In this document: piece after piece, positions 21,582 to 29,336 of the stretch
How positions within the stretch are numbered: the stretch's first letter is position 1
How the letters are laid out: each line of letters starts with the position of its first letter
Virus record (IMG/VR): IMGVR_UViG_3300021962_000446
Coordinates: 1 to 29,937 of that record
Strand: one strand, 5' to 3'
Origin: a virus
DNA length: 29,937 bases
Program-made: the position numbers and the translations under genes
Notes under the pieces: generated by a model
What the model was told of the DNA's origin: nothing
The model's input: the letters and a program-made list of their open reading frames with translations, nothing else
The model's database searches: none

Positions 21582-23037
21582 GTGGCTGATTCCGCTACCA
21601 GCAATCGTTCTTGCGTTCTGGCCAACCACAGTTCAAGCCGAAGTGCAGCCAGGGTTAAACACAACCTATTACACGATTGACGAGATACCACCAGTCCAGT
21701 CGACATCCGAATATCTTGTCTGTGGTTCGGAGATTGAGAACAACATCAACCGCAACTACGACTACGAACTATTCGAGGACTGCACCTACGACTTGTTCAT
21801 GGTTCACATGACCGGCTACATCACTATTCCTCAACATCAAACCATCGAGTTCATGATCGCCTCGGATGATGGTGGTGAGGTAACTATTGACGGCAATACG
21901 TTCGGTGTGTGGTGGGATCAGGGTTGCACTTGGACTATGTCAGGTCCACTAGATCTGAACGCCGAAAGTGTGCCACTTCAATTATTCATGTACGAAAACG
22001 GTGGAGCGGCCTGCCTGATGCTTGCATGGAAAATAGATGACGGCGACTGGACAATCGTGCCGGACGAAGCGTTCACAATCCAGGCTGCGGCGACCTCAAC
22101 AACATCGACAACATCCACATCAACCACACCAAGCACATCGACAACAGTCGAAGAAACCACAACCACGACCTCAACTTCTTCCACGACAACTTCAACATCT
22201 ACAACAATCCTTCCCAGCACCACGACCACAACTCAGATAGACACAACCACATCAACGACAAGTACCACGACACCGCCGACCACAACAGTTGCACCAGCTC
22301 CGTCAACAACGCAAGCACCATACACTCCTCCTCAAACCACGACGACTAGTTCGTCAACTTCTTTACCAGAGCAATCCACAACGACCACAACCGTCTTGCC
22401 TGAACCTGAAACCACAGTTGCAGAAACATCTACGACCGTTCCTGACAGCACGATTCCGGACACGACCGTTCCTGAGACAACCGTTCCAACTCTGCCCGAC
22501 GAAACAACGCCGCAAACAACACAGCCACCGCTAGAAACAAGTATCCCAGAAACAGTGCCAGAAGAAGTAGAGAGTTCATCAACCACAACGATACTTGAAA
22601 TCAAAGTCGACCAACCGATCAGCGACGCAAAGGTCAAGCAGATTCTTGAGACATTGACGGATGCGAAGCCTGAGCAGATTGTCGCGGCGATCGAGCAGGT
22701 GTTGGCATCTAATCTGACCAGCGATCAGGCTGTGTCAATCGCATCATCGCCTGAGGTGTTGGCGGCAATCACCCAAGACCAAGCCGAACAGATATTCGAA
22801 GAACTAGTCGTAGAAGAAATCACAGTCGAGCAAGCCGACGAACTCGTCGCAGTTCTGAACGAAGCACCAACAAAAGTCAAGAAAGCATTCCAAGACACAA
22901 TCAATGTGTTCGCAGGCGTCTTCGATTCGTTCCAAATGGTCGGCCAGACAATACCTGTTGGTGAGCGTAGAACACTTATTGCCGTATCCAATACACTTGT
23001 TGCGGTAGGAGCAAGCCTGCGCAGAAAGAACCAATAG
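21541..23037 (+). CDS. Secreted PA14-like protein with Thr-rich stalk
   Basis: From ATG 21541 the protein is 498 residues. Residues 1-33 form a likely signal peptide: basic start, hydrophobic WLIPLPAIVLAFW, cleavage after TVQA. Residues about 34-175 resemble a PA14-type carbohydrate-binding domain, with EFMIASDDGGEVTIDGN and LQLFMYENGGAACLMLAWKI. Residues about 178-350 are a mucin-like Thr/Ser/Pro stalk. Residues about 360-475 are helical, with repeated EQI/DQA segments. The end has a short hydrophobic segment followed by RRKNQ, resembling a weak membrane anchor; no LPxTG is seen. This is the architecture of an actinobacterial surface protein rather than a normal virion protein. It lies just before the holin genes. 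Start is uncertain: no ribosome site, and TTG 21532 and ATG 21544 are alternatives. Confidence 0.77.
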   Translation: MMAQYKHLFQTTSRWLIPLPAIVLAFWPTTVQAEVQPGLNTTYYTIDEIPPVQSTSEYLVCGSEIENNINRNYDYELFEDCTYDLFMVHMTGYITIPQHQTIEFMIASDDGGEVTIDGNTFGVWWDQGCTWTMSGPLDLNAESVPLQLFMYENGGAACLMLAWKIDDGDWTIVPDEAFTIQAAATSTTSTTSTSTTPSTSTTVEETTTTTSTSSTTTSTSTTILPSTTTTTQIDTTTSTTSTTTPPTTTVAPAPSTTQAPYTPPQTTTTSSSTSLPEQSTTTTTVLPEPETTVAETSTTVPDSTIPDTTVPETTVPTLPDETTPQTTQPPLETSIPETVPEEVESSSTTTILEIKVDQPISDAKVKQILETLTDAKPEQIVAAIEQVLASNLTSDQAVSIASSPEVLAAITQDQAEQIFEELVVEEITVEQADELVAVLNEAPTKVKKAFQDTINVFAGVFDSFQMVGQTIPVGERRTLIAVSNTLVAVGASLRRKNQ

Positions 23038-24542: not shown

Positions 24543-24667
24543 AACTAGCGAAAATCGAAGCCCATCGGCTAAGGTTGGTGGGTGCGCTCCCCACTAGGGT
24601 TGATGTAGCACCGCATCAAGTCACCTCCTTCTTGATGCGTCATTCCTGCACTTACGAAAGGACCACG
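24543..24667 (+). promoter_or_regulatory. Structured RNA leader with anti-SD loop and competing hairpins
   Basis: The 125-base gap holds several strong elements. GTGGG/CCCAC (24578-24582 and 24590-24594) forms a first hairpin. CGCATCAAG (24612-24620) and CTTGATGCG (24631-24639) form a perfect 9-bp stem with loop TCACCTCCTT (24621-24630). That loop equals the 3'-end anti-Shine-Dalgarno stretch of 16S rRNA. The middle strand CATCAA (24614-24619) can instead pair with TTGATG at 24600-24605. The ribosome site AAAGGA near 24657-24662 can pair with TCCTT in the loop. This layout suggests a translational switch for the secreted transglycosylase. No U-run terminator follows. Confidence 0.6.
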
Positions 24668-25240
24668 ATGCGCATACTCACTGCAATCCTGGCAACACTC
24701 ACCAGCCTCACCATCAGCCTCGGCATAGCACAGGCAGCGTCCGCACCAAACCGTCCCAGCGTCGCTATAAACGCATTACAGCCACTCTGGGAACCAGCTA
24801 GCACCGACAGGCTCGACCCGATCCAGCCGATCAGATTCCGTCACGGAGACGTGTCCTGGCTACCGTCACTCGCCAAGCAGGCAGGCTGGCCCGACCACGC
24901 GATACCGCAACTGACCGAACTGGTGCTACGCGAATCAGGTGGATGTCCGAACAGACGTGGCGGAGACATGATTGATAAAAACTGCAACATCAGAGGTGTG
25001 TCCGAATGGAATCATCGTTCCGACACAGGCTTGTTGCAGATCAACGGCGTCAACTATGACCCATCAAGAAACAAGTGGGCTGCGATCTGTCGAGAGATGA
25101 ACATCTGCACACAAGACCCGTTACTCGATCCGCTAACCAATTTGAAAGCTGGGCTGGTGCTGTACCGGATCTCAGGCTTCGAGCCGTGGAATCCTTGTAA
25201 TTGGCGGGTTTGCAAAGCATCCACCACATCCATGCCGTAA
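24668..25240 (+). CDS. Secreted lytic transglycosylase / lysozyme-like enzyme
   Basis: From ATG 24668 the protein is 190 residues with a signal peptide (1-23, MRILTAILATLTSLTISLGI then AQA); an ORF start at 24575 would run through the leader. The catalytic domain has LVLRESGG with probable catalytic E89, TGLLQING at 120-127, and NLKAGLVLYRISGFEPWNPCNW near 158-179, the general plan of SLT-type transglycosylases. Six Cys residues (93, 106, 141, 147, 177, 182) suggest disulfides after export. It probably cleaves the glycan strands of peptidoglycan and complements the M15 peptidase. AAAGGA six bases upstream supports the start. An export signal on a phage muralytic enzyme means it could act without a holin. 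Confidence 0.8.
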   Translation: MRILTAILATLTSLTISLGIAQAASAPNRPSVAINALQPLWEPASTDRLDPIQPIRFRHGDVSWLPSLAKQAGWPDHAIPQLTELVLRESGGCPNRRGGDMIDKNCNIRGVSEWNHRSDTGLLQINGVNYDPSRNKWAAICREMNICTQDPLLDPLTNLKAGLVLYRISGFEPWNPCNWRVCKASTTSMP

Positions 25241-26135: not shown

Positions 26136-26176
26136 CGATGATGACATAGATTCCCAAGAAAACAAGGAGCCTGCAC

Positions 26177-27226
26177 ATGCTTGAAGAAACACGACAAGAA
26201 GCACCGAAAGATCGGTGGGGTCGATACCTCGTCACAACACCTGACGGCAAACAACGCGGATACACCCGTGTCACCACCATTGCGAAAGCACCAGATGACG
26301 AAGCCGCACTCAAATCGTGGGCGAACCGAATGGTCATCACAGGACTCATCCAACGCTCCGATCTACTTGCGCAAGCATCCACGAAACTTGACGACAAGAA
26401 CGCGCTAAACAAAATCGCCGAAGAAGCAATTACCGCAGGTGGCGGATCAGCCCGCGCCAATCTTGGCACAGCACTTCACTCACTGACCGAACAAATTGAT
26501 CTCGGCAAGAAACCAGCAATCCTGCCAGGCTTACAAGCCGACCTTGACGCCTATGTTGCGACTTTGCAAAAGTACGGTGTTCACATCATGCCGAACTACA
26601 TCGAGTCGGTCGTGATCAACGATGACATGGAGTATGCCGGCACGTTGGATCGCATCGTGGAAGTCGATGGCCGAATGTACATCGCCGACTTAAAAACCGG
26701 CACTGATCTTGCCTACTCGTGGCGGGCAATCGCAATCCAGTTGGCTGCCTACGCCGACGCTCAACACATTTACAACTACAAAACCGCTGAACGCACCAGC
26801 CTGCCAATGATTGAAAAAGACCGAGCAATCGTCTTCCATCTACCAGCAGGCGAAGCACGATGCGAACTGTATTGGGTTGATCTTGAAGCAGGTCGGGAAG
26901 GATTGAAACTTGCGCTCGATGTCCGCGCGTGGCGCAAACGCAACGACCTAGAACAACGATTCGAAGAAGCCAAAATCATCAAACTAGAACCGAGCCTTGA
27001 CAAACGCCGCGACTGGATGACGGCACGAATCAAACATCTACCAGAAAAAGCACAAAACTTGTTGCGGTCGTTGTGGCCTGTTGACGTGCCGAAACTCGGC
27101 GAAGCCGACAACGAACAAATAGACCTATTGATCCGCATCGTCGCTATGCTCGAAGCCGAAAACGATGTGCAGTTCTTTGAGACCGATCCAGCGTTGAAAC
27201 TGACACGCAAGAAGGCAAAGAAATGA
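26177..27226 (+). CDS. Cas4/RecB-like PD-(D/E)XK exonuclease
   Basis: The 349-residue protein shows the RecB-type nuclease order: H101 in LGTALHSLTEQ, D158 in YAGTLDRI, D171 and K173 in IADLKTG, and Q188 with the following Tyr in IQLAAYA. The N-terminal 50 residues (GYTRVTTIAKAPDDEAALKSW) resemble the opening of phage exonucleases of this group. No Cys cluster is visible, so it is not a full Cas4. It probably degrades DNA ends for recombination or host DNA recycling. It overlaps the next gene by four bases. The C-terminal 120 residues are helical and of unknown role. Confidence 0.85.
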   Translation: MLEETRQEAPKDRWGRYLVTTPDGKQRGYTRVTTIAKAPDDEAALKSWANRMVITGLIQRSDLLAQASTKLDDKNALNKIAEEAITAGGGSARANLGTALHSLTEQIDLGKKPAILPGLQADLDAYVATLQKYGVHIMPNYIESVVINDDMEYAGTLDRIVEVDGRMYIADLKTGTDLAYSWRAIAIQLAAYADAQHIYNYKTAERTSLPMIEKDRAIVFHLPAGEARCELYWVDLEAGREGLKLALDVRAWRKRNDLEQRFEEAKIIKLEPSLDKRRDWMTARIKHLPEKAQNLLRSLWPVDVPKLGEADNEQIDLLIRIVAMLEAENDVQFFETDPALKLTRKKAKK

Positions 27227-29318: not shown

Positions 29319-29336
29319 GAAATAGGAGACCTGCAC

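Follow-up and report, generated by a model that had tools for sequence, protein, structure and literature searches.

Why does the region in front of a phage gene for a lysozyme-like enzyme contain a hairpin whose loop repeats the 3' tail of 16S rRNA, and what could such an element do? The window, i.e. the whole stretch of DNA analysed, is a 29,937-base IMG/VR virus record, and all coordinates given here are window positions. The features of this region are the following:

24546-24551, plus strand: -35-like box TAGCGA, of which TAGCG is kept in 27 of 27 leader sequences
24570-24575, plus strand: -10-like box TAAGGT, invariant in 27 of 27 leader sequences
24581-24612, plus strand: hairpin 1 (GGTGC / GCACC) of the consensus fold, with the predicted transcript start at or beside 24581
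24612-24639, plus strand: hairpin 2, with the stem CGCATCAAG (24612-24620) / CTTGATGCG (24631-24639), a perfect 9 bp here and 9-10 bp in relatives
24621-24630, plus strand: 10-nt loop TCACCTCCTT of hairpin 2, identical to the conserved 3' tail of 16S rRNA (anti-Shine-Dalgarno, anti-SD, region)
24645-24651, plus strand: linker CCTGCAC, which joins hairpin 2 to the Shine-Dalgarno (SD) sequence and is kept in nearly all leaders
24656-24662, plus strand: SD sequence GAAAGGA of the transglycosylase gene, in which AAGGA complements UCCUU of the loop; GAAAGGACCACGATG is invariant in all leaders
24668-25240, plus strand: gene for a putative secreted lysozyme-like protein or lytic transglycosylase (190 aa), from its translation, AlphaFold2 model and Foldseek search

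The phage and the gene behind the leader

No nucleotide relative of the window was found among 50,697 phage records. Its large terminase is closest to those of Pontimonas phage phiPsal1 (39%) and Streptomyces phages and a WhiB gene is present, so the host of this phage is very likely an actinobacterium. The enzyme gene is preceded by a VanY-type endolysin gene and opens a new block, which continues with genes for a 60-aa protein with a hydrophobic N-terminus, WhiB, a RusA-like resolvase and a PD-(D/E)XK nuclease, and the leader is located where the late gene block borders on the early-like one. A Thr/Ser-rich low-complexity repeat array with copies spaced by 9 nt (22082-22288) is found inside a 501-aa frame 5' of the lysis genes, and it differs among relatives.

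The product of the enzyme gene has no match in Pfam or PHROGs. An AlphaFold2 model was obtained from 31 sequences, superseding a low-confidence run with 8 sequences, and its residues 55-178 have mostly pLDDT > 70. The best Foldseek matches of this model in the PDB were lysozymes, MltE and RpfB, with a top E of 0.008 and zero matches at E <= 0.001. This predicted fold is compatible with the term secreted transglycosylase used in a preliminary description of the locus, and the cautious designation would be secreted lysozyme-like enzyme.

A structured leader in related phages

The loop TCACCTCCTT occurs only once in the 29.9-kb record, and besides hairpin 2 no hairpin of the window combines a 10-nt loop with at least 8 consecutive Watson-Crick pairs. 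When 178 nt comprising the leader and the gene start were compared with dinucleotide shuffles, they were found to fold better (z of -2.3), and 3 of 200 shuffles had an equally good fold.

A search with the enzyme protein gave 29 loci, and the leader is carried by all of L002-L026. Pattern scans with the invariant core of hairpin 1, CTCCCCACTAGGGTTGA (24587-24603), returned the same 29 viral contigs whether the core was used alone or with the hairpin-2 loop; all carry the loop, with zero cases of the core without it. The leader is therefore present in about 30 related contigs (about 31 with the window and the variant-core locus L005, which lies on one contig with L092), always 5' of the enzyme gene where the contig reaches. 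As a background control, the 16-mer GTCACCTCCTTCTTGA (the loop plus 3' arm of the window) was found in 30 unrelated viral contigs, in which the hairpin is absent. A pattern scan of GTDB genomes gave one chance match (Fulvivirga, L098) without the hairpin, more distant transglycosylase homologues did not match the leader model, and a second leader copy was not found in the stretches searched. In sister phages, with VanY proteins 82-87% identical, the enzyme and the leader are both missing and at this site a gene of 87 aa is followed directly by another gene, so the leader and the enzyme gene come and go together. The leaders are 86-94% identical to that of the window, whereas identity at the 4-fold sites of the adjacent gene is 55-80%, which argues for strong selection on the leader at the nucleotide level.

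The comparison of these leaders revealed several forms of the hairpin-2 stem, CATCAAG in the window and CAACCAG, CAACTCAG and CAACCAAG in relatives, and in each of them the opposite arm matches perfectly, while the loop letters are fixed with the sole exception of one C-to-T change in L020 (TTACCTCCTT). The formal count gave two-sided changes in 8 cells, 0 one-sided changes and 0 broken pairs. The covariation score was 0.071, against 0.025 in shuffles, none of 500 shuffles reached it, and slid controls collapsed. Conservation together with paired changes across relatives rules out a chance hairpin, and by this comparison hairpin 2 has clearly been maintained by evolution. In hairpin 1, a C-G pair is replaced by a compensatory U-A pair in L077, L084 and L087 with the loop unchanged, and the enzymes of these loci are only about 66-72% identical. 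A likeness of GGTGCG in hairpin 1 to helix 45 of 16S rRNA had been considered and was dropped, as the L077-type leaders change GGTGCG with compensation. As judged from these alignments, the region is a conserved structured RNA leader of two adjacent hairpins upheld by paired changes.

The preliminary description had proposed such a leader, and both the conservation and the covariation that it called for were found in related phages. The sequence elements that it listed, i.e. the stem, the loop, TTGATG at 24600-24605 and AAAGGA at 24657-24662, are all present. Its further proposal, an alternative structure in which TTGATG pairs with CATCAA and excludes hairpin 2, was abandoned: two of the six pairs cannot form in 15 of 16 sequences, no covariation was detected, and this two-state switch is private to the stem form of the window, with arm changes following the local hairpin instead.

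The paired changes also bear on the possibility that the element acts as DNA, as an operator or cruciform site for a promoter repressor or for replication. The inverted repeat is indeed placed directly 3' of a promoter-like element and at the border of the two gene blocks, but the changes in the arms are matched, arm length varies (9-10 bp) and the loop is fixed, the reverse of what is expected of an operator read by its sequence, and a very small probability is given to this explanation. The leader was also rejected as a terminator, since no U run was found after the stem of hairpin 2, which an intrinsic terminator would have. Membership of a known Rfam family was rejected as well: at the gathering threshold the leader matches no covariance model, riboswitches included, and at a relaxed threshold a single chance-level match was obtained, on the opposite strand.

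Transcript start and functional strand

The two boxes upstream of hairpin 1 are separated by 19 nt in 27 of 27 leaders (TAGCG-N19-TAAGGT), despite 17 different spacer sequences. TAAGGT is followed by a discriminator of constant length (5 nt) and variable sequence, and then directly by hairpin 1. This box pair occurs once in the window. The -35-like box TAGCGA does not match a canonical sigma-70 hexamer, nor was the pair listed by a consensus promoter scan. Since the boxes, at constant spacing, and their discriminator of 5 nt lead exactly up to hairpin 1, they are likely a plus-strand promoter pattern, and transcription would begin near 24581, where the stem of hairpin 1 has its base. A start downstream of 24639, which would have separated the hairpins from the mRNA, is not what these boxes predict. 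Just 3' of the stop codon of the upstream gene there is an inverted repeat, CGCTA..TAGCG (24544-24552), of which the TAGCG side alone is kept in all relatives.

With hairpin 1 at the predicted 5' end of the mRNA, the leader could be a generic 5'-end stabiliser in which the anti-SD match merely prevents pairing of the loop nearby. Such a function, to which a small probability is assigned, does not predict that all ten letters of the loop are fixed and agree with 16S rRNA. A coding leader has been discarded too: a 221-aa frame from TTG at 24575, in frame with the enzyme gene, is found in the window only, and in relatives the linker and the stem differ in length by non-multiples of three, so the leader is not coding.

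There is little chance that the minus strand is the functional one, in which case the hairpin would present a perfect SD, AAGGAGGTGA, for an antisense RNA or a small peptide. This SD lies 4-5 nt before a TTG/ATG start, an SD with an NTG codon is found in all forms, a 15-codon frame is open in 11 of the 14 distinct forms and the hairpins fold on both strands. However, a perfect SD on that strand is an automatic consequence of the plus-strand loop, and the invariance covers 4-fold third positions, unlike in a peptide. Stop codons interrupt the frame in L020 and L025, as does a frameshift in L005, and the small peptide was rejected because frame conservation fails in these three forms. The conserved promoter-like boxes and all recognisable genes of the window are on the plus strand. 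Considering the promoter pattern and the broken minus-strand frame, the plus strand has been taken as functional, and by these sequence criteria it very probably is.

The linker motif CCTGCAC is found again at 26170-26176 and 29330-29336, directly between the SD and the ATG of two genes of the early block (starts at 26177 and 29337), and CTGCAC-ATG is kept in relatives at both genes. The motif common to the leader and these two genes is possibly a shared regulatory signal.

Possible roles of the anti-SD loop

The loop UCCUU and the SD AAGGA form a duplex of 5 bp (-4.6 kcal/mol). The five pairs are present in 16 of 16 sequences and are invariant, hence they yield no covariation signal. In the predicted ensembles the loop is unpaired in all 18 distinct leaders, with an opening cost of about 0, and opening of the SD costs 0.1-2.7 kcal/mol in most leaders and 5.7 kcal/mol in L025, both elements being thus predicted open and joinable; in the consensus fold, CCU of the linker may pair weakly with AGG of the SD. 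The modelled geometry of loop and SD would suit an H-type pseudoknot. The SD stretch GAAAGGACCACG is invariant, in contrast to the SDs of other and neighbouring genes of these phages, which vary. An SD fixed in this way agrees with pairing to the loop, itself invariant.

Translational control of the phage wall-cutting gene is most likely the function of this region. More specifically, it is a serious, if tentative, possibility that the region is a cis-acting control leader of the lysozyme-like enzyme operating through a loop:SD pseudoknot. According to this proposal, a 5' leader of about 85 nt, its exact start being that predicted above, would open an mRNA whose first gene is that of the enzyme. 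Hairpin 2 would hold the anti-SD single-stranded in its loop, about 27-30 nt 5' of the weak SD of the same mRNA, and UCCUU and AAGGA would form the pseudoknot in competition with the identical tail of 16S rRNA. Initiation would be kept low until the balance is shifted, either by ribosome supply or by a factor, protein or other, at the invariant hairpin 1, and the wall-cutting enzyme would be limited or delayed, with the regulator and the timing being presumptive.

The suggestion made earlier that the loop pairs with the ribosome site of its own gene thus stands as far as complementarity is concerned, but this pairing involves half of the loop, and weighing against it, the duplex is weak, and even without it the SD is mostly open or weakly paired. 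Since pairing with the own SD needs UCCUU only, the UCACC half of the loop, which extends the identity with 16S rRNA, is not explained by simple sequestration.

All ten loop letters equal the 16S tail, and the own SD accounts for five of them, which has led to consider that the loop is kept because a reader of the 16S 3' tail (an assembly factor, e.g. Era, a ribosomal protein, or a toxin with RNase activity that cleaves 16S rRNA just 5' of the anti-SD) binds or cuts it, the leader being a sensor or decoy that couples enzyme synthesis to the state of the ribosome or to a host toxin. The mycobacterial toxin MazF-mt11 cuts 16S rRNA at C^ACCU (PMC12274833), and its target CACCU is contained in the loop of all forms but L020, where UACCU should lose the site. 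RelE1 from mycobacteria, which belong to the phylum of the likely hosts, cuts 16S rRNA directly 5' of the anti-SD (PMC12620021). Both are host enzymes acting on a 16S sequence that is found in the loop, and that an RNA serves as their decoy or sensor is a conjecture made here. Era reads GAUCA and CCUCC of the 16S tail (PMC10582724), but the loop is without the GA that Era reads before UCA. A precedent for an anti-SD mimic bound by a ribosomal protein is OLE RNA, the P6 element of which binds bS21 (PMC12054373). Overall, retention of the loop as a mimic of the 16S tail seems unlikely, and it is improbable that the leader is read, bound or cut by an anti-SD-acting factor, for example a host toxin RNase, so as to tie enzyme synthesis to ribosome state or host defence.

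Alternatively, an abundant leader might lower the translation of other mRNAs by pairing in trans with their strong SDs (AAGGAGGUGA). The loop is exposed in every leader analysed and would pair with AAGGAGGTGA at -15.7 kcal/mol and with AAGGAGG of the next gene at -10.9 kcal/mol, and GGAGGTGA is located 5' of the large terminase start (1643-1650). However, an overlapping coding frame includes GGAGGTGA at this site, and only one of four relatives checked yielded the sequence, this coding-region match before the terminase being the only trans target found within the phage. The element is bound to one gene and is missing where that gene is missing, and a single mRNA leader would have to compete with a large pool of SDs. 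Regulation in trans is accordingly regarded as quite improbable.

Known systems and leaders of distant homologues

Several known systems resemble the cis-acting leader proposed here in part. Riboswitch expression platforms that sequester an anti-SD place it near a weak SD in the 5' leader; unlike them, the phage leader has no Rfam aptamer and no supported alternative fold. The mRNA of T4 gene e, encoding lysozyme, sequesters its own ribosome site (PMC3014915), and in both phages a structured leader 5' of a wall-degrading enzyme controls ribosome access, as is presumed for the present one. In T4, SD and start codon are buried in a helix, in read-through transcripts only, whereas in this leader the SD is open, the anti-SD is in the loop of a separate hairpin and the mRNA has its own predicted promoter. 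OLE RNA shares with the leader the presence of a copy of the 16S anti-SD in a non-ribosomal RNA. It is, however, a bacterial non-coding RNA of about 600 nt whose mimic is paired to an SD-like strand, while here the loop of 10 nt in a phage mRNA leader is predicted open, unlike the paired anti-SD of OLE P6, and no OLE match was found with Rfam.

No paper describing a leader of this kind was found in the literature. It constitutes a covarying RNA family without an Rfam match, in phages that infect actinobacteria as suggested by gene content, and its loop repeats that functional stretch of 16S rRNA which is conserved most strongly. If the leader acts in cis, it would be an unusually simple design, an mRNA that competes with the ribosome by means of its own anti-SD copy; if the loop is a 16S mimic, ribosome-targeting toxins or assembly factors would be linked to phage lysis.

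More distant homologues of the enzyme (5 distinct sequences) are preceded by a different leader, with a GGGC hairpin that carries CUCCUG. This is complementary to the own SD CAGGAG in four of the five leaders, and the fifth has CCUCC:GGAGG. As these hairpins also complement their own SD, an internal anti-SD appears as a recurring theme in the control of this enzyme, and this recurrence favours the cis-acting reading.

A third class of leaders was observed 5' of transglycosylase homologues in L139, L161, L173, L263 and L264, with a ATAGGGCTCNNCTCCTGA hairpin and a loop complementary to a downstream SD. In L263 and others this SD seems to start a short frame (KPFEIG...) that overlaps the enzyme frame, and a coupled or recoded start is possible in these leaders. 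Finally, the distant homologues L126, L127, L131, L140, L150, L152, L170 and L176 share, 5' of the transglycosylase start, the motif CATAG-(variable stem)-CCTATCC..AGGAG. This leader type has no Rfam match, and its stem shows, by eye, matched changes.
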